Assembly (NCBI RefSeq): GCF_031432215.1
Contig: NZ_JAVKGN010000001.1
Span: 1-64,000 of the forward strand
Direction of reading: 5' to 3'
Source of the DNA: Halodesulfurarchaeum sp. HSR-GB
GTDB taxonomy: Archaea; Halobacteriota; Halobacteria; Halobacteriales; Halobacteriaceae
DNA length: 64,000 nt
The notes under the pieces were generated by a model that had not been told where the DNA came from, did no database searches, and worked only from the letters and a program-made list of their open reading frames with translations. Shown here piece by piece: positions 79 through 13,729 of the stretch. The translations under genes and the position numbers were made by a program. Position 1 is the first letter of the stretch. Every line of letters starts with the position of its first letter.

Positions 79-124
79 TTCCGTGTGCGCTTCACTCGGG
101 GCAAAAACGCGCCCCTCGTTGCAG

Positions 125-199
<75 letters not shown>

Positions 200-261: not shown

Positions 262-1614
262 TCACTCCTCTCCAGTCTCCTCCTCTTCCTCCTCTGTCGT
301 CCCGTTTCCGCTGTCAATGGTCCGCTTCACGTCGATCTGGTAGTGCTCCAGAATGTCCCGGCCGAGCAACAGCGAGTAGTCCATGTGGGACCGATCCTCC
401 AGGCTGGCTGCCACGGTGTGCCGATCGCCACCGATCCCGACCACGATGTCCACGATGGGCCGTGACTTCCCCGTCTTCGTACTGCCCGAACGGACCCGCG
501 TCATGCTCTTGATCGGCCCCGCGCCGATCTCGGCCGCCAGCCGGGTGTCGATGCTGGTGCGGGCGGCCCCGGTGTCGGACTTCGCCACGACCCGCTCGGT
601 GCCGGACGTGCCGCTGACGAGCACCTCCTCGGTGTAGCCGATTACTTCCATCGGCTCCCGGGTGGTGGGTTTGGTCTGGGTGACGGTCTCGGGCATCGAA
701 TCGTCGAGGACGCCGGCCAACTGCTCGACCTGATCAGGATCGACCGATCCGCCCGCGGTCTCGATGGCCAGCGTCGCGATCGAAGCCGCGGGGTTGTGGC
801 CGGTCGCCCTGAAGAGGCCTCTGAATCCGGCGGTGGGGTTGACCTCCAAGAGATGCCAGCCGTCGACGCCCTCGACGAGATCGACACCTGCGTAGTCCAG
901 TCCGATCATGTCGGCGGCCTCGACGGCCATCGAAGCCGCTTGATCGGGAAGGTCCGGCACTGCTTCGACCTCGCCACCCAGTGCCACGTTCGTCCGCCAG
1001 TCGTTGTCCGGGGCCCACCGGCGCATCGCACCTTCGATCTCCCCGTCGACCACGTAGACTCGCAGATCGGACTGTCGCTGTTCGTCGGTCTGTTCGATGA
1101 GTTCCTGGAGGAACGCGTAGCGATCACCGACCCGGGGGTTGACCGACTCGTCGCGGCCGATCTTCCAGGTCCCACCGCCGTGGGTCCCGATCGCCGTCTT
1201 GTAAACCGCCTCGTCGCCGAACTTCTCGCGGAGCGCGTTCAGCCGGTCGGCATCCAGTGCCAGGGCCGCGTCCGGAATCTGGACCGCGGAATCGGCCAGC
1301 AGGGTCGCCGTCGAGAACTTGTGAAAGGCCGTGAGGACGTTCTCCGGGCGATTTAACATTGGCCGGAGCCGGCCGAGACTCTTTGCCAGCCCCAGCAGTT
1401 CGGCCGGCTGTTCCGTATTCGAGAGCAGCAGTCGGTTCACGATCACGTCCACGTCAGGTTCCAGGGTCGCCTGCCCGTCCTCGATCTCGACGACCAGGTT
1501 GTTCTGGCGGAGCCAGTACCCCTCGTGACCAAGGGCGTTGACGGTGTTGAGAATGGATTTCGTTTCTTTGCTGTTGTGAAGACCCAGAACGCCGACGGAA
1601 ACGGGTTCGGTCAT
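262..1614 (-). CDS. RimK-type ATP-grasp glutamate ligase fused to RimB-like aspartic protease domain
   Basis: The 450-residue protein has an N-terminal region and ATP-grasp domain typical of RimK (poly-glutamate ligases acting on a protein or cofactor). After residue ~300 comes a retropepsin-like domain of the RimB family, with catalytic Asp-Thr-Gly near residue 347 and a LLLGRDIL segment late in the domain. Ligase (writer) and protease (eraser) activities would therefore sit on one chain. The protein ends in a run of six glutamates plus two more, which resembles the expected reaction product. The start is the ATG at 1612-1614; an upstream Arg-rich extension is not needed. The aspartoacylase-like gene at 1708 is divergent. 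The substrate is unknown; ribosomal protein or coenzyme F420 glutamylation are both possible. Confidence 0.82.
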   Translation of the reverse strand: MTEPVSVGVLGLHNSKETKSILNTVNALGHEGYWLRQNNLVVEIEDGQATLEPDVDVIVNRLLLSNTEQPAELLGLAKSLGRLRPMLNRPENVLTAFHKFSTATLLADSAVQIPDAALALDADRLNALREKFGDEAVYKTAIGTHGGGTWKIGRDESVNPRVGDRYAFLQELIEQTDEQRQSDLRVYVVDGEIEGAMRRWAPDNDWRTNVALGGEVEAVPDLPDQAASMAVEAADMIGLDYAGVDLVEGVDGWHLLEVNPTAGFRGLFRATGHNPAASIATLAIETAGGSVDPDQVEQLAGVLDDSMPETVTQTKPTTREPMEVIGYTEEVLVSGTSGTERVVAKSDTGAARTSIDTRLAAEIGAGPIKSMTRVRSGSTKTGKSRPIVDIVVGIGGDRHTVAASLEDRSHMDYSLLLGRDILEHYQIDVKRTIDSGNGTTEEEEEETGEE

Positions 1615-1707: not shown

Positions 1708-2730
1708 ATGACAGCGGGCGCGTTCACCTACAGTGGTGGGAAAGTTGATCCGGGCGAGTCGAGTACCATCCGCTACCGGATCAGCGAGACCTACCTCGGC
1801 GATCCCGTCAAGATTCCAGTCTCCATCGTCAACGGGGCGGAACCGGGCCCAACACTGTTCATGACTGCGGCCGCCCACGGGGACGAACTCAACGGCATCG
1901 AGGTCGTTCGCGAGGTGGCACTCGACTGGGACCACTCGAAGCTCCACGGGACGTTGATTCTCCTTCCCGTGCTCAACGTCCCGGCCTTCCTGGCCCAGCA
2001 ACGGTACCTCCCGATCTACGACCGGGACCTCAACCGATCCTTTCCCGGCGATCAGGAGAGCACGAGTGCCAAGCGGATGGCCCACACCATCTTCACGAAC
2101 TTCATCGAGCCGGCGGATCTGGGACTCGACTTTCACACCTCGACTCGCGGCCGGACGAACATGCTTCACGCCCGCGGTGACATGGCCCGTGAAGACGTCT
2201 TCCGGCTCGCACACGCCTTCGGTTCACACGTGATCATCGACACGGAAGGGTCGGAGGGTACACTTCGGCGGGAGGCGACTGCGAGTGGCGCGCCGACGAT
2301 TACCGTCGAGATGGGCGAGGCCCACCGATTCCAGCGCGGACTGATCGATCGGGCCCTCGAAGGCGTGGCGAGCGTGCTCGCCGAGTTCGAGATGTGGCCG
2401 GACGAAACGGTTCACTGGCCAGGGTGGCGCACGACAATTACCGCCGAGGAGAAAACCTGGCTCAGGGCCGAGAGCGGTGGCATCGTCGAGATGCACGCCG
2501 AACGGGGCGAACTGGTGGAGACGGGTGAGACGATCGCCACCATCACGAACCCGTTCAAGACCGAGCGGACCACAGTCGAGTCCCCCTGGACCGGGCTGCT
2601 GGTCGGCGTGCTGGAGAATCCGGTCGTCTACCCTGGAAACCCACTCTGTCACCTGGTCGAAGTGGACGAGGCCACCCAGGCAGTCATCGAACAGGGCGTC
2701 GCCGACACCCACGCCGCGGGCGAGGAGTAA
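1708..2730 (+). CDS. Succinylglutamate desuccinylase/aspartoacylase-family zinc hydrolase
   Basis: This 340-residue protein belongs to the M14-like AstE/AspA zinc hydrolase family. The first zinc motif is visible as H-G-D-E in AAAHGDELNGIE around residue 55, and a later DFHTST supplies the third ligand. The C-terminal ~85 residues form a lipoyl/biotinyl-like beta domain seen in many archaeal members. It would remove an acyl or aminoacyl group from an amide. It is divergent from the RimK-RimB fusion, with 93 nt between starts, so the two may act on the same glutamate-modified substrate; that link is inference. The ATG at 1708 is chosen because family homology begins there. Confidence 0.82.
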   Translation: MTAGAFTYSGGKVDPGESSTIRYRISETYLGDPVKIPVSIVNGAEPGPTLFMTAAAHGDELNGIEVVREVALDWDHSKLHGTLILLPVLNVPAFLAQQRYLPIYDRDLNRSFPGDQESTSAKRMAHTIFTNFIEPADLGLDFHTSTRGRTNMLHARGDMAREDVFRLAHAFGSHVIIDTEGSEGTLRREATASGAPTITVEMGEAHRFQRGLIDRALEGVASVLAEFEMWPDETVHWPGWRTTITAEEKTWLRAESGGIVEMHAERGELVETGETIATITNPFKTERTTVESPWTGLLVGVLENPVVYPGNPLCHLVEVDEATQAVIEQGVADTHAAGEE

Positions 2731-2775
2731 CACTCGGGAGAAAGTTCTTTGTGCGCTGCCGTCGCCGTAGCAGGT

Positions 2776-3207
2776 ATGTCAGCGCCTTACGACCGTGGCC
2801 GGATCGAGGACTTCGGCCGCTTCCGGCGATTCTCGGCGGGGATGTGGGCCTGGGTCCTTCACAAGGCCACCGGCTGGGTTCTCATCGGGTACCTCTTCGC
2901 CCACATTGCGGTCCTCAGCACGGCGATTCCGGCGGCGGGGAACGCGGAGGCCATCGCTGCCGAGGCAGACCTCTACACGCGCACGCTCCAGGGACTGGAG
3001 GGGATTTTCCTGGTTCGCGTCCTGGAAGTCGGCCTGCTCACGGCGGCGGTCTTTCACATGGTAAACGGGATTCGGCTCCTGCTGGTGGATCTGGGAATCG
3101 GCCTCGAACGACAGGTCCAGACCTTCTACGCGTCACTCGTGGTGACGGCAGTGATCGTGCTCGCGAGTATCCCCGTCTTCCTTCCGCCGGAGGTCGTTCC
3201 CTGGTAA
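2776..3207 (+). CDS. sdhC: Succinate dehydrogenase cytochrome b subunit (SdhC)
   Basis: This 143-residue membrane protein has three predicted helices. It carries the SdhC pattern of a His-containing first helix region (WVLHKATG) and a conserved FHMVNGIR segment in the third helix, where heme b and quinone would bind. It anchors the flavoprotein and iron-sulfur subunits to the membrane in complex II, feeding succinate electrons to menaquinone. It is first in an sdhCDBA operon, and its stop codon overlaps the sdhD start by one base (TAATG). The ATG at 2776 is preferred to alternatives upstream because the family N-terminus starts here. Confidence 0.9.
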
Positions 3208-3575
3208 TGACGGGGTCACGACCCACGTTCCGCCACGGATCTCTCGCCTGGTTCCTCCAGCGTGTCACCGCCGTGGTGCTCCTGTTCACGCTCGCCTTTC
3301 ACTTCCTCTGGCTACACTTCGTGAACCACGCCGCCGAGGTCACGCTCTGGGGGTCGGCGCTCCGCATGGACCGGCTCTCCTATCTCCTGTTGATGGTCGT
3401 CTTCCTGCTGACAGCGGCCTTTCACGGGATCAACGGGATCTACAACGCGCTGGTCAACGAGGGTCTCTCCGGGCGGGCACGACGTGTCACCGCCTGGGTG
3501 CTGGCCATCGCTGGAACGATCCTGGTCGTCCAGGGACTCCGGGTTTCGGTTGCACTCGCGGGGGTGGTGAACTGA
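3207..3575 (+). CDS. sdhD: Succinate dehydrogenase membrane anchor subunit (SdhD)
   Basis: This 122-residue, three-helix membrane protein has FLQRVTAV at the start of helix 1, a His-rich FHFLWLH segment, and FHGINGIYN in helix 2/3, parallel to the equivalent motif in SdhC. It completes the quinone and heme site of complex II. It overlaps sdhC by one base at its start and sdhB by one base at its end (TGATG), indicating translational coupling. The length is normal for haloarchaeal SdhD. Confidence 0.9.
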   Translation: MTGSRPTFRHGSLAWFLQRVTAVVLLFTLAFHFLWLHFVNHAAEVTLWGSALRMDRLSYLLLMVVFLLTAAFHGINGIYNALVNEGLSGRARRVTAWVLAIAGTILVVQGLRVSVALAGVVN

Positions 3576-4369
3576 TGGCGGAATCGGTCGACCCGGACAC
3601 GAGCGGGCTCCAGGGTGGGGACACACAGCCCAAATCAGAGGGCGAGACGGTCGAGTTGCAGATTTTCCGGTACGATCCGGAGATCGAGTCCAAGACCGAG
3701 GCCCACTTCGAGGGGTTCCGTGTCCAGACCCACGAGGGGATGACAGTCCTCGACGCCCTGATCGAGGCCCGGGACGAACAGGACCCCTCGCTCACCTTCA
3801 GACACTCCTGTCGGCAAGGGGTCTGCGGGTCGGACGCGTTGTTCATCAACGGCAGGCAACGCCTCGGGTGCAAGACCCAGATCGACGAGCTCTCGACGCC
3901 GATCCGAATCGAACCGCTACCCCATCACCCGGTCGTCAAGGACCTCGTCGTGGACATGGACGACTTCTACGAGCGAATGCGGGCGGTCGAACCGTACTTC
4001 GACCCCGACGATCCACCACCCGGTGAACTCGAAGAGCGCAAACAGACCCGGGAGAACCGCGAGGCGGTCAAGCTGAGTACCCGGTGTATCTGGTGTGGGG
4101 CCTGTACCTCCTCCTGTTCCATCGCCGCCGACGAGGACGTCTATCTGGGACCGGCGGCCATCAACAAGGGGTATCGCTTCTACGCCGACGAGCGGGAGGG
4201 CGAGGATCGCAAAGCAAAGCGACTGGAGCTGTTGACCGAGACCGACGGCGTCTGGCGGTGTCAGACCCAGTTCTCCTGCACGACGGTCTGTCCCCAGGAG
4301 ATCCCGCTCACCGAACACATCCAGCAACTCAAACGCGACGCGACGAAGGCGGACCTGAAATTCTGGTAA
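3575..4369 (+). CDS. sdhB: Succinate dehydrogenase iron-sulfur subunit (SdhB)
   Basis: This 264-residue iron-sulfur subunit transfers electrons from FAD in SdhA to quinone through three clusters. The [2Fe-2S] motif CRQGVCGSDA with a later Cys is near residues 87-105. The ferredoxin-like C-terminal half has CIWCGACTSSC and CQTQFSCTTVCP for the [4Fe-4S] and [3Fe-4S] clusters. The ~25-residue acidic N-terminal extension is usual in haloarchaea. It is the third gene of sdhCDBA and is followed 2 nt later by sdhA. Confidence 0.95.
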   Translation: MAESVDPDTSGLQGGDTQPKSEGETVELQIFRYDPEIESKTEAHFEGFRVQTHEGMTVLDALIEARDEQDPSLTFRHSCRQGVCGSDALFINGRQRLGCKTQIDELSTPIRIEPLPHHPVVKDLVVDMDDFYERMRAVEPYFDPDDPPPGELEERKQTRENREAVKLSTRCIWCGACTSSCSIAADEDVYLGPAAINKGYRFYADEREGEDRKAKRLELLTETDGVWRCQTQFSCTTVCPQEIPLTEHIQQLKRDATKADLKFW

Positions 4370-4371
4370 CC

Positions 4372-6198
4372 ATGTACGAACACGACGTACTCGTGATCGG
4401 CGGCGGCGGAGCCGGCCTGCGGGCAGCCATCGCGGCCCAGGAGGCCGGGGCTGACGTGGCCATCGTCTCGAAACTCCACCCGGTGCGGAGCCACACGGGG
4501 GCCGCCGAAGGCGGGATCAACGCCGCGCTGCAGGCCGGGGACTCCTGGGAGGCCCACGCGACGGACACGATGAAGGGCGCGGACTATCTGGCAGACGCCC
4601 CCGCAGTCGAGACCTTCGCCCGGCGAGCGCCCAAAGAAGTGATGCAACTCGAACACTGGGGGATGCCCTTCTCCAGGGACGAGGACGGGACGGTCTCCCA
4701 GCGCCCCTTTGGTGGGCTCTCCTTCCCCCGGACAACCTACGCCGGCGCGGAAACCGGCCACCATCTCCTGCACACCCTCTACGAGCAGGTCATCAAGCGC
4801 GGGATCACCGTCTACGAGGAGTACTTCGTCACTCGACTCGCGGTGACCGACGAGCCCGACCCGAACGAGCGAACCTGTCACGGCGTGACCGCGCTGGACC
4901 TCAAAACTGGAGCCGTGGAGGGGTTCAAAGCTACCGGCGGGGTGATTCTCGCCACGGGCGGCCTCGGGCAGGTGTACGACCACACGACCAACGCCGTGGC
5001 GAACACCGGCGACGGGATGGCGATGGCCTACCGGGTTGGCGTCCCCCTGGAGGACATGGAGATGATCCAGTTCCACCCGACGACCCTGCCCTCGACCGGC
5101 GTGCTCATCACTGAGGGCGTCCGCGGCGAGGGGGGCCGCCTCTTCAACAGCGAGGGCGAGCGGTTCATGTTCGAGCGCGGGTACGCCGCCGACGAGGGCG
5201 AACTCGCCTCCCGTGACGTGGTCTCCCGGGCGGAACTGACCGAGATCCAGGAGGGACGTGGCTTCGGCGATGGCCACGTCAAACTCGACATGCGTCACCT
5301 GGGCGAAGAGCGGATCATGGACCGGCTTGAGAACATCGTCGGCCTGGCCCGGCACTTCGAGGGCGTCGATCCGCTCGAAGAGCCCATGCCGGTGAAGCCA
5401 GGCCAGCACTACGCCATGGGTGGCATCGAGACCGACGAGTACGGTTCGACCTGTATCGAGGGACTCTATGCGGCCGGCGAGGCGGCCTGCGTGAGCCTCC
5501 ACGGGGCGAACCGGCTGGGCGGGAACGCGCTCCCGGAACTGTTCGTCTTCGGGGCCGAAGCCGGCCGACACGCCGCGGGCGTGGCTCTGGACCCGCCAGC
5601 GATCGGGGTCGGGCCCGACCCGGACGCGGATCGGGAGGACCGCGAGTGGCCAACCGACCTGGGTACGGCAGGAGCCGAAACCGACGTCGTCCCGGACGGC
5701 CGGGATCTCGAACCCGGCGAACTCCTCGGCGAGGCCGTCGCTGCCGAGCGGGAACGCGTCGAGGAGTTATTAGAAGGCGACGGCGACCGGAGCCACGTCG
5801 AGGTCCGCGAGCAGGTCCAGGAGACCATGACCGCCCACGTCAACGTCTTCCGGGAGGCCGAGGGCCTGGAGACGGCCCTGGAGGACATCAGCGCCGCACG
5901 TGAAGCATACGAGGACGTCACGGTCACGGACCCATCACGAACCTTCAACACCGACCTCCAGCAGACGATCGAGACGCGGAACGTCATCGACCTCGCGGAG
6001 GTCATCACGATGGGCGCACTCGCTCGGCCCGAGTCACGAGGCGCTCACTGGCGGGCCGAACATCAAACGCGTCGCGACGAGGAGTGGCTCCGCCACACGC
6101 TCGTGAACTGGCGGGACGGCGACCCGGAACTCTTCTATCGGCCAGCGATCCTCGAAAGCGAGTCGGTCACCTACGAACCGGAAGAACGGTCCTACTGA
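4372..6198 (+). CDS. sdhA: Succinate dehydrogenase flavoprotein subunit (SdhA)
   Basis: This 608-residue FAD protein oxidises succinate to fumarate in the TCA cycle. The dinucleotide-binding motif GGGGAGLRAA is at residues 9-18. The covalent-FAD His lies in VRSHTGAAEGG near residue 43. The substrate-site motif HPTT and the RGEGG segment follow, and the capping and C-terminal helical domains are complete. The start is the ATG at 4372, two bases after the sdhB stop; the frame is open further upstream but only as a shadow of sdhB. The acidic insert around residues 400-470 is typical of halophiles. The gene ends exactly where the convergent XapX gene ends. Confidence 0.96.
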   Translation: MYEHDVLVIGGGGAGLRAAIAAQEAGADVAIVSKLHPVRSHTGAAEGGINAALQAGDSWEAHATDTMKGADYLADAPAVETFARRAPKEVMQLEHWGMPFSRDEDGTVSQRPFGGLSFPRTTYAGAETGHHLLHTLYEQVIKRGITVYEEYFVTRLAVTDEPDPNERTCHGVTALDLKTGAVEGFKATGGVILATGGLGQVYDHTTNAVANTGDGMAMAYRVGVPLEDMEMIQFHPTTLPSTGVLITEGVRGEGGRLFNSEGERFMFERGYAADEGELASRDVVSRAELTEIQEGRGFGDGHVKLDMRHLGEERIMDRLENIVGLARHFEGVDPLEEPMPVKPGQHYAMGGIETDEYGSTCIEGLYAAGEAACVSLHGANRLGGNALPELFVFGAEAGRHAAGVALDPPAIGVGPDPDADREDREWPTDLGTAGAETDVVPDGRDLEPGELLGEAVAAERERVEELLEGDGDRSHVEVREQVQETMTAHVNVFREAEGLETALEDISAAREAYEDVTVTDPSRTFNTDLQQTIETRNVIDLAEVITMGALARPESRGAHWRAEHQTRRDEEWLRHTLVNWRDGDPELFYRPAILESESVTYEPEERSY

Positions 6199-11340: not shown

Positions 11341-12702
11341 TCAGCCGACGAGGCCGAGTCGACTCATTCCGCCCATGATGCCAAAGCCGAGCACGAGCAA
11401 CATTGTGACGGCATAATAGATCGTGTGGGCCCGGTCGGGCTGGAAGGCCTCGGGGAGGTGTTTCCGGACGATGTAGTAGTTCGCGAAGTAGAAGAAGACC
11501 TGGAGGATCGCCATCAGCGCGGCGGAGAACACCATCAGGGTGACCGGCAACTGCCCGATGACCAGGATCGGAATCACACTCGCCGTCCCCATGAGCAGGA
11601 TGAACCCGCGACGGAGGCGGTCGGTGTCCATCTCACGTTCCAGCACGAGCGGGAGCGTGTCGGCGTTGACCCGAGCGGCTCCGTCCATGACCGTGATGAC
11701 GGTGGAGTAAAGCGCCGCGAACGCGCCGACGACCACCAGGTAGAACGTCCAGTCACCGAAGCCCTCCTGGAGAATGCTCCCGATCGCGATCGCGAGGTTC
11801 TGATCCTGTGGCGGCGTGGGATAGAGGACGGAGGTCGCCAAGAGAATCATGCTCACGAGGAGGAGGAAGCTAAAGCCGAAGGCGACCCGGAAGTCCCGGG
11901 TCCCGGTCCGCATCCAGCTCGCGATGTACTCCCGGAAGCGCTCGTCGGTCGGGTCATAATCCTTGCGGCGCAGGGCCCGTGCGCCCTGCTCTTTCGCGAG
12001 ACTCCAGCTCCCGATCGTGACGGTGGTGCTCAGCCCGGTCGGGGCGTACCCCGCGAGGGCGGCGAAGATGCCCAGGAAGGCCGGCGCGGTCAGATCGGGC
12101 ACCGAGAAGGCCGTCTCGGCGACCAGGGATGGCGACGGGGGCGAGACGAACACGCCCAGGACGATGAGGCCGCCGAGCACGAGGACGAAGAGTTTCATCA
12201 GGTTCTCGATCCAGGCATAGCGGGAGACGATGGTCAGGGCCACCGCGAAGCCGATCAACAGGAGATACAGTTGAATGGCCGAAAGCGAGGGCACCAGTGC
12301 CGCGAGGAAGGTCGCCGCGCTGAAGCCGACCGAGGCGAGGATGACCGTCCAGCCCACCAGGTAGACCAGCATCGTGAAGACCTGTCCCCAGTGGTCCGGC
12401 CCGGGGAGGTCCCCGTAGCCCTCAACTGGATTGCGCCCGATCCCGTAGTTGTACCGGATGCCCAGTTCCCAGCCCCCGTACTTCGCCAGGTAGATGATCG
12501 CGATAACCCAGACCCCGAACATCCCGTAGAGGCCACCGAGGGTCGGCGCCAGGACGATGTGACTGCCGCCGATTCCAAGCAGCGCCCAGAGAAGCGACGG
12601 GCCCAGGTGCTCGCGGATAAATCCGGGCCAGTCCTCCTCGGGATACGTAAGTTCGGGCATGTCCTCGGCTGTGGACTCACCCGACGCGTCGGCTGATGAC
12701 AT
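11341..12702 (-). CDS. Nramp-fold transporter lacking canonical metal-site motifs
   Basis: This 453-residue membrane protein has about eleven hydrophobic helices and overall Nramp (SLC11) similarity, including the GPSLLWALLGIG opening of TM1. The DPGN metal motif expected in TM1 is absent; the position reads GSHIVLAPT. The MPHN motif expected in TM6 is replaced by GYAPTGLST. Canonical Mn/Fe transport is therefore unlikely; Mg-type or other substrates are possible. An acidic ~30-residue N-terminal tail precedes TM1. The start is the ATG at 12700-12702, divergent from the FKBP gene. Confidence 0.8.
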   Translation of the reverse strand: MSSADASGESTAEDMPELTYPEEDWPGFIREHLGPSLLWALLGIGGSHIVLAPTLGGLYGMFGVWVIAIIYLAKYGGWELGIRYNYGIGRNPVEGYGDLPGPDHWGQVFTMLVYLVGWTVILASVGFSAATFLAALVPSLSAIQLYLLLIGFAVALTIVSRYAWIENLMKLFVLVLGGLIVLGVFVSPPSPSLVAETAFSVPDLTAPAFLGIFAALAGYAPTGLSTTVTIGSWSLAKEQGARALRRKDYDPTDERFREYIASWMRTGTRDFRVAFGFSFLLLVSMILLATSVLYPTPPQDQNLAIAIGSILQEGFGDWTFYLVVVGAFAALYSTVITVMDGAARVNADTLPLVLEREMDTDRLRRGFILLMGTASVIPILVIGQLPVTLMVFSAALMAILQVFFYFANYYIVRKHLPEAFQPDRAHTIYYAVTMLLVLGFGIMGGMSRLGLVG

Positions 12703-12776
12703 GAGTGTCTGTGACCTTGTCACGGGCAGGGGTCTAAACGTTGCGATGCGACGGAGCGGCTGTGGTCGGACCGTGA

Positions 12777-12785
12777 TTCTTAAGG
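12777..12785 (+). promoter_or_regulatory. TATA-like element for the FKBP gene
   Basis: The AT-rich TTCTTAAGG stands out in GC-rich sequence 24 nt before the ATG at 12809, the spacing expected for an archaeal TATA box with a leaderless or near-leaderless transcript. No Shine-Dalgarno motif precedes the start. Confidence 0.5.
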
Positions 12786-12808
12786 GTCGAACGGGACTCC
12801 CTTGGGGT

Positions 12809-13729
12809 ATGAGTGACGAACAGACGGCCGAATCGGCCGATGATGCGGCGGAGACCGCCGAGGAGTCGGGACTCCAGAACGGCGACTTCGTAAAAGTGGC
12901 GTACACCGCCCGAACAGTCGAGGGCGGCGACCTCGTGGACACGACCGACGAAGAGATTGCAGAAGAAGAGGGCGTCGACACGGAGGGCCAGGAGTTCGCC
13001 CCGCGTACGATCGTGCTGGGTGACGGTCACCTCTTCCCCGCCGTCGAGTCCGACATCGTGGGCCAGGAGGTCGGTGACTCCGGCAGCGTCGTCGTGCCCG
13101 CCACCGAAGCCTTCGGCGAGTACAACGAGGACGAAGTCCGGACGGTCAGCGCCGAGAAGATCCCGGAGGACGACCGTTACCCCGGCGCACACGTCGACGT
13201 CGACGGACAGCACGGCCACGTCGAGACGATCATCGGCGGCCGCGCCCGCGTGGACTTCAACCACCCGCTGGCCGGCGAGGACGTCGAGTACGAGTACGAG
13301 ATCCTCGACACCGTCGAGGACCAGGTCGAACAGGCCACGGGCCTGCTCCAGACCTTCTTCGACGTCGAACTGGACATGCACCTCGCGACCGACGAGGTCG
13401 AGGAGGAAGTCGAAGTCGAGGACGACGACGGCGAGACCGAAACGGAGCTCCAGACCGTCGAGAAGGAGACCCTCTACATCGAGAGCAACCCACAACTGCA
13501 GTTCAACCAGCAGTGGATGATGTCCAAACAGCAGATCCTCGGTGACGTCATCGAGAAGCTGGACATCGATCGGGTCATCGTCCAGGAGATCATCGACGGC
13601 GCGCCCGCGATGCCCGGCATGGGTGGCATGGGCGGCGGACTCGGCGACATCGAGGCGTCCCTCGAAGACGCCGACGTCGACGCCGACGAGATCATGGACG
13701 AACTCGACGTGGACGAACTCGAGGAGTAA
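12809..13729 (+). CDS. FKBP-type peptidyl-prolyl isomerase (long archaeal type)
   Basis: This 306-residue cytoplasmic protein combines a SlyD-like FKBP domain with the insert-in-flap chaperone domain (residues ~25-170; GDFVKVAYTART opening, FPAVESDIVGQ, VDFNHPLAG signature). The archaeal C-terminal extension follows. It ends in a Met/Gly-rich PGMGGMGGG stretch and an acidic tail. It accelerates proline isomerisation and helps fold proteins. An acidic ~20-residue N-terminus precedes the domain. A TATA-like element 24 nt upstream suggests a leaderless transcript. Its stop directly abuts that of the convergent RAD55-like gene. Confidence 0.92.
   Translation: MSDEQTAESADDAAETAEESGLQNGDFVKVAYTARTVEGGDLVDTTDEEIAEEEGVDTEGQEFAPRTIVLGDGHLFPAVESDIVGQEVGDSGSVVVPATEAFGEYNEDEVRTVSAEKIPEDDRYPGAHVDVDGQHGHVETIIGGRARVDFNHPLAGEDVEYEYEILDTVEDQVEQATGLLQTFFDVELDMHLATDEVEEEVEVEDDDGETETELQTVEKETLYIESNPQLQFNQQWMMSKQQILGDVIEKLDIDRVIVQEIIDGAPAMPGMGGMGGGLGDIEASLEDADVDADEIMDELDVDELEE

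Follow-up and report, generated by a model that had tools for sequence, protein, structure and literature searches.

A haloarchaeal RimK-RimB fusion protein with a conserved terminal Glu-Glu and an AstE-type partner gene

Introduction

One of the closest described relatives of the locus reported here is the RimABK system of Pseudomonas, in which a RimK ligase and a RimB protease with opposing activities are separate proteins that target ribosomal protein S6 and are coupled both physically and functionally (PMC11957791, PMC10092738). RimA, the third component of that system, is an EAL phosphodiesterase rather than a member of the AstE family, and the sections of these two papers used here report no glutamylation of the enzymes themselves. 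Bacterial S6 is so far the only protein on which poly-alpha-glutamylation of the C-terminus is known, and Pseudomonas RimB cuts at least six contiguous glutamates, or five when the encoded terminal glutamate is the first of them; aspartate is no substitute for glutamate in this cleavage, and both of the bacterial S6 proteins tested with the enzyme end in glutamate (PMC11957791). Self-modification by an ATP-grasp enzyme was suggested earlier for CDC123 (PMC4431377).

The two families also occur in a single chain. The bacterial RimBK hybrid (for example Desulfotalea psychrophila DP2392), found mostly in Flavobacteriales and Rhodobacterales, carries RimB at the N-terminus and RimK at the C-terminus; its RimB part is an active protease on oligo-glutamate, and the RimBK protein tested did not glutamylate S6 (PMC11957791). 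That survey lists bacterial accessions only, and the word "archaea" does not occur in it (PMC11957791). RloABC of Pseudomonas aeruginosa likewise combines a retropepsin with an ATP-grasp protein, but it has a secreted protease and a transglutaminase-like RloB (PMC12239564), and the NCBIfam RloA models score far below cut-off against the fusion described below. MptN, CofF and LysX belong, like the ligase part of this fusion, to the RimK-like ATP-grasp superfamily, but they have no protease domain and their models stay below cut-off. Their acceptors are small molecules or a carrier protein, and we know of no archaeal counterpart of ribosomal protein S6.

We describe here a gene at the start of the window, which is the stretch of 64,000 nucleotides of Halodesulfurarchaeum sp. 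HSR-GB (contig NZ_JAVKGN010000001.1) that was analysed as a whole. The original prediction had presented its product as a fusion of two proteins that are separate in Pseudomonas; this holds, but a bacterial RimB-RimK hybrid of the opposite domain order has been published (PMC11957791). What appears to be new is therefore the archaeal occurrence, the RimK-first order and the terminal Glu-Glu. A literature search, mostly of non-subscription papers, returned no archaeal RimK-RimB fusion, RimK-first order, terminal Glu-Glu or AstE partner.

Results and Discussion

A RimK-like ligase and a RimB-like protease in one chain

The fusion open reading frame runs from an ATG at 1614, which matches the starts of the orthologues, to a stop codon ending at 262 (Table 1). 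Pfam match positions place RimK first and RimB second, and both domains score above the curated cut-offs, so that the predicted combination of ligase and aspartic protease in one chain was upheld. The translated frame was also read to the predicted terminus: the protein ends in GNGTTEEEEEETGEE, encoded by a mixture of GAG and GAA codons, its last ten residues being EEEEEETGEE.

Table 1. Features of the fusion locus and of stand-alone RimB-like proteins (positions are those of the window unless a locus is named)
Feature	Position	Strand	Basis or remark
RimK-RimB fusion gene	262..1614	-	450 aa; open reading frame, Pfam/NCBIfam and full-length relatives
RimK-like ATP-grasp ligase domain	775..1323	-	residues 98-280; PF08443 match
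RimB-like retropepsin domain	322..642	-	about residues 325-431; PF05618, profile-profile match, PDB 9g59
DTGA aspartic-protease motif, D347	565..576	-	aligns with DTGA of stand-alone RimB-type proteins
C-terminal tail, residues 430-450	265..327	-	freely variable among relatives
Six-Glu run, residues 441-446	277..294	-	unconserved; at least six Glu in 5/53 relatives
Terminal Glu-Glu, residues 449-450	265..270	-	conserved element
AstE/AspA-type deacylase gene (PF24827)	1708..2730	+	divergent neighbour of the fusion, conserved partner
Stand-alone RimB-like retropepsin	L085 9550-9903		
Stand-alone RimB-like retropepsin	L086 9997-10380		
Stand-alone RimB-like retropepsin	L201 2995-3369		

The ligase part matched PF08443 at residues 98-280 with 79.7 bits (cut-off 21); all 26 relatives used for alignment match this family too. 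The window protein narrowly missed the cut-off of the NCBIfam rimK_fam subfamily (137.1 versus 143.4 bits), for which the best E-value among the 26 relatives was 4.1e-49, and a profile of these relatives found E. coli RimK as its best match in the PDB (5zct, 4.7e-29), with RimK 7qyr also matched. Nine residues show no variation among the 26 aligned proteins: R61, which lies N-terminal to the PF08443 stretch, and K139, D183, R185, R199, R207, D245, E257 and N259. By alignment these correspond to RimK R64, K141, D187, R189, R203, R211, D248, E260 and N262, and K99, the counterpart of RimK K100, is kept in most of the 26; the RimK numbering was taken through a Salinivibrio RimK whose residues agree at the published positions. 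We take K141, D248, E260 and the other mapped positions that do not contact the product to be catalytic. The contacts to poly-glutamate in the RimK crystal are S68, S7, R8, R64, S14, N262 and R189 (PMC10092738), among which the N-terminal contacts R8 (L or T here) and S14 (E here) are lost in the 26-protein alignment.

The S6-specific equivalog PRK10446 did not reach its cut-off (52 versus 331 bits). MptN, the best-scoring NCBIfam equivalog with 117.9 bits and thus ahead of S6-RimK, raises the possibility that the ligase glutamylates a coenzyme in the manner of MptN or CofF, with the protease domain trimming or regulating. We regard such a small-molecule acceptor as very improbable, given that MptN requires 350 bits and every equivalog score lies far below its cut-off, that RimB cleaves peptide oligo-glutamate (PMC11957791), and that the terminal Glu-Glu would be left unexplained.

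The C-terminal part matched PF05618, the Zn_protease or RimB family of dimeric retropepsins, at residues 368-431 with 31.9 bits (cut-off 27), and 25 of the 26 relatives did so at an E-value of 0.001; gag-asp_proteas scored under its cut-off at residues 341-424. The profile of the relatives matched the PDB retropepsins 9g59 (1.7e-8) and 9g58, and profile-profile comparison with stand-alone family members aligned their DTGA with that at D347 (probability 94, E 1.2e-7), a residue that is invariant across the aligned relatives. The catalytic aspartate of Pseudomonas RimB is D31 (PMC11957791). Since the AlphaFold model has a pLDDT of 60, which drops below 50 in the tail and over most of the RimB domain, no structural conclusion was drawn from it. 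Both active sites thus retain their motif residues across haloarchaea, which answers the doubt raised with the original prediction, namely that no relative might have a Glu tail and neither domain might retain catalytic residues.

Distribution of the fusion

The archaeal RimK-RimB fusion is an old haloarchaeal protein. A full-length fusion was present in 49 of 59 related genomes searched, the genome of origin included, and second copies in four genomes bring the set to 53 proteins; at least five of the ten genomes without a full-length fusion are at least 98% complete. A profile search found PF05618 in 138 of 392 genomes of the phylum. Among the matches listed, those in the same order lie mostly in open frames of at least 440 residues, and the others in frames of about 100-300 residues, a size at which the RimB-type protein apparently stands alone. 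In a second collection the 80 named haloarchaeal loci listed, a subset of 356 stretches that encode a relative, were all fused. Haloarchaea also encode small stand-alone RimB-like retropepsins of 117-127 aa (Table 1), which have neither ligase nor Glu tail. At locus L227 (6941-8350, minus strand) a fusion of the second-copy type, beside an astE gene, is split over two frames, one holding the ligase start and the other the remainder, which ends VEE; this is either a broken gene or a sequencing error. A viral origin of the fusion was considered and rejected, because none of its relatives turned up when viral contigs were scanned.

An AstE-type partner gene

The divergent neighbour of the fusion gene matched PF24827 with 165.6 bits. 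An astE gene is oriented divergently within the fetched stretch at 46 of the 53 loci, directly adjoining the fusion in all but two, and it also adjoins the diverged second family copy (G016b, G008b and G371). The ends of these AstE neighbours vary, and across the 53 loci no terminal Glu-Glu pattern was found in them beyond the genus of origin.

The same three families occur together, as separate genes on one strand, in a bacterium and in other archaea of the phylum. Two plasmids of Salinivibrio carry the annotated order "ATP-dependent zinc protease", rimK, "desuccinylase/aspartoacylase", and the AstE of the window is 36% identical to the AstE of this rimB-rimK-astE operon. Nine stretches taken from further families of this phylum (L218-L226) were examined: seven carry rimB-rimK, six of them with astE alongside, and the remaining two gave no match. 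The RimK proteins of those seven archaeal stretches are 73-77% identical to Salinivibrio RimK, which ends ...RGKG; none of the seven ends in glutamate, so that the terminal Glu-Glu sets the haloarchaeal protein apart from this operon. We therefore consider it very probable that the haloarchaeal locus, with RimK and RimB in one chain and astE divergent next door, represents the haloarchaeal version of a glutamylation module with three parts.

Other genes around the fusion were noted. A tRNA-Glu(UUC) gene lies at 124-199 (minus strand), 63 bp downstream of the fusion gene, a gap that is also 63 bp in the nearest relative and 689 bp in one other genome; as no tRNA-Glu lies near the fusion in the rest of the 53 loci, the linkage was taken as chance. 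The contig start (1-60) resembles by eye the 3' half of another tRNA, and ARAGORN, with introns allowed, found only the tRNA-Glu there. Next to the AstE-like gene, open reading frames at 2749-6198 (plus strand) resemble a succinate dehydrogenase operon (named by eye), and two families with ends fitting its large and iron-sulphur subunits occur in the fetched loci of 33 and 26 genomes.

Selection on the last two residues

Tails were defined in the 53 proteins by a cut after the conserved GRDILxxYQVDV and range from 1 to 24 residues (median 15). The last position is glutamate in 47 of 53 and the penultimate one in 44 of 50, with aspartate at neither; at position -3 glutamate falls to 31% and aspartate reaches 16%. 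Shuffling residues within each tail 20,000 times gave a mean of 15.4 and a maximum of 28 proteins ending in Glu (observed 47), and a mean of 4.4 and a maximum of 13 ending in Glu-Glu (observed 42). Among the 80 named loci listed (of 356 stretches), terminal Glu occurs in 78, Glu-Glu in 69 and terminal Asp in none, leaving two exceptions to terminal Glu. Because these sets share species and common descent with each other and with the 123 distinct sequences of a tree, changes were counted on that tree: position -1 changed 7 times and position -2 12 times, against 35-59 changes at each of positions -3 to -12 and 59 in the length of the tail. As the last two residues rarely change while the tail before them drifts, selection holds them in place, and the acidic stretch preceding them is mostly filler.

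Comparison of homologous C-termini, which the original prediction had called for, thus sustained the terminal Glu-Glu and not the poly-Glu run on which that prediction centred. Runs of at least five glutamates occur in only 11 of 53 tails and of at least six in 5 of 53, and the run was therefore rejected as a functional element.

Six of the 53 proteins depart from terminal Glu: the three of one genus (G026, G042 and G055), which are tail-less yet keep the DTGA and ExNP motifs and the astE neighbour, the second copy of G046, G038 (ending EEEEL) and G037 (ending EIEQ). In a looser family cluster terminal Glu is found in 93 of 113 fusions, lower than in the curated sets of 53, 80 and 123 on which our conclusions rest.

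The conserved terminus could also be read as a tethered pseudosubstrate, with Glu-Glu seated in the acceptor site of RimK or the cleft of RimB, where it would hold the enzyme off, or order it, until the true acceptor displaced it and no glutamate would be added. This would predict the same conservation, as RimK recognises a free C-terminal glutamate, and would suit G016b, whose tail reaches only 6 residues beyond the core and still keeps Glu-Glu. A tethered Glu-Glu would nevertheless be extended like a substrate unless geometry prevented it, tail lengths from 1 to 24 residues fit such an arrangement poorly, and the AlphaFold model lends it no structural support; we consider it unlikely.

Terminal glutamate in other haloarchaeal proteins

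Among 396 neighbouring control genes from the same loci, 49 end in Glu, 50 in Asp and one in Glu-Glu, and among 24 controls with acidic ends the corresponding numbers are 6, 7 and 0; the gene caller used for these controls favours acidic proteins and drops genes that have no homologue in the set. In a 384-kb sample of the genome of origin, 47 of 290 called genes end in Glu and five in Glu-Glu, the fusion included, a count that omits the AstE-like gene, which also ends in Glu-Glu and was missed by the gene caller. The fusion is the sole gene of the 290 with a run of at least five glutamates in its last 25 residues, and its Glu-rich terminus exceeds chance.

The other four genes of this sample ending in Glu-Glu were traced in relatives; chosen for that ending, they form a biased sample. 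Terminal Glu was found in 25 of 30 FKBP sequences (Glu-Glu 20/30, Asp 0), in 27 of 30 of proteasome alpha, PsmA (Glu-Glu 13/30, Asp 1), in 16 of 30 of DUF2150 (Asp 10/30) and in 4 of 28 of an SRPBCC protein. Of the 21 families represented by ten or more distinct ends, three reach a fraction of 0.8 terminal Glu, namely the fusion, FKBP and proteasome alpha; none of the 17 families included irrespective of their ends does so. Where the genome has no full-length fusion, terminal Glu is still present in 5 of 7 FKBP and 6 of 7 proteasome alpha proteins, two of these seven genomes being under 90% complete. Selection for terminal Glu can therefore have another cause, and this is the strongest result against taking it as a sign of glutamylation by the fusion enzyme.

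It also gives weight to the view that the terminal Glu-Glu is unrelated to the chemistry of the fusion and reflects a C-terminal preference, for stability, docking or protection from carboxypeptidases, with the enzyme acting on another protein or making free poly-alpha-glutamate. The tail-less lineage agrees with this, as does the formation of free poly-glutamate by Pseudomonas RimK with RimB (PMC11957791). Such a preference would not be general, given the near-equal use of Glu and Asp by the neighbours and the behaviour of the 17 unselected families, and the pattern of Glu but never Asp fits the reported RimB specificity; we judge this reading somewhat unlikely.

As candidate acceptors in trans sharing a terminal Glu-Glu, FKBP, PsmA, DUF2150 and the SRPBCC protein were rejected: DUF2150 and the SRPBCC protein do not keep terminal Glu, and no dependence on the fusion was seen. 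The window encodes an FKBP26-type peptidyl-prolyl isomerase ending DELEE (12659-13729, plus strand), and the proteasome alpha of locus L212 (6924-7652, plus strand) has a hypervariable acidic tail in which Asp and Glu are both common.

A proposed cycle on the enzyme's own C-terminus

Given the kept terminal Glu-Glu, the fusion itself may be among the targets of its activity. In the model that we prefer, which is drawn from sequence comparison, the RimK ligase would add alpha-linked glutamate to a C-terminal glutamate, the RimB retropepsin would cut oligo-glutamate, and the AstE/AspA-type hydrolase would be the third part. The encoded Glu-Glu would serve as a seed on the chain's own C-terminus, to be extended by the RimK domain, whether of its own subunit or of an adjacent one, until five or six glutamates in a row were reached, whereupon the RimB domain would trim the extension. 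Such a cycle might act as a timer, as an activity switch or as a means of growing polymer on the enzyme. Since most haloarchaeal tails encode fewer glutamates at the end than RimB needs, the Glu-Glu seed would have to be extended before it could be cleaved. The full statement, combining module, fusion and self-acceptor, is put forward tentatively, as possible rather than probable.

Reading the tail as a self-acceptor or as a mimic of the substrate, as the original prediction suggested, agrees with the conserved Glu-Glu, but the run of acidic residues varies freely and one genus is tail-less. The internal six-Glu run of the window protein is already at the cleavage limit of RimB, which the self-acceptor proposal does not account for. 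Stand-alone RimK and an example of the bacterial RimBK-type layout, in Thioclava, whose rimK product ends ...VVGLA, carry no such tail, which also argues against self-acceptance.

A bolder version would make the fusion a self-primed poly-alpha-glutamate synthase, in which terminal Glu-Glu is the primer, the ligase elongates, the retropepsin releases and AstE processes the product. We think this quite improbable; if true, archaea would possess a polymer machine that is primed by protein and releases its own product, with a logic comparable to that of glycogenin.

Beyond the fusion, a conserved terminal glutamate emerged in FKBP and proteasome alpha as well. With its C-terminus the fusion provides a specific candidate acceptor that can readily be tested in Haloferax, a host amenable to genetics, and the conserved neighbour suggests that AstE/AspA is a third, overlooked component of the Rim module in two domains of life.
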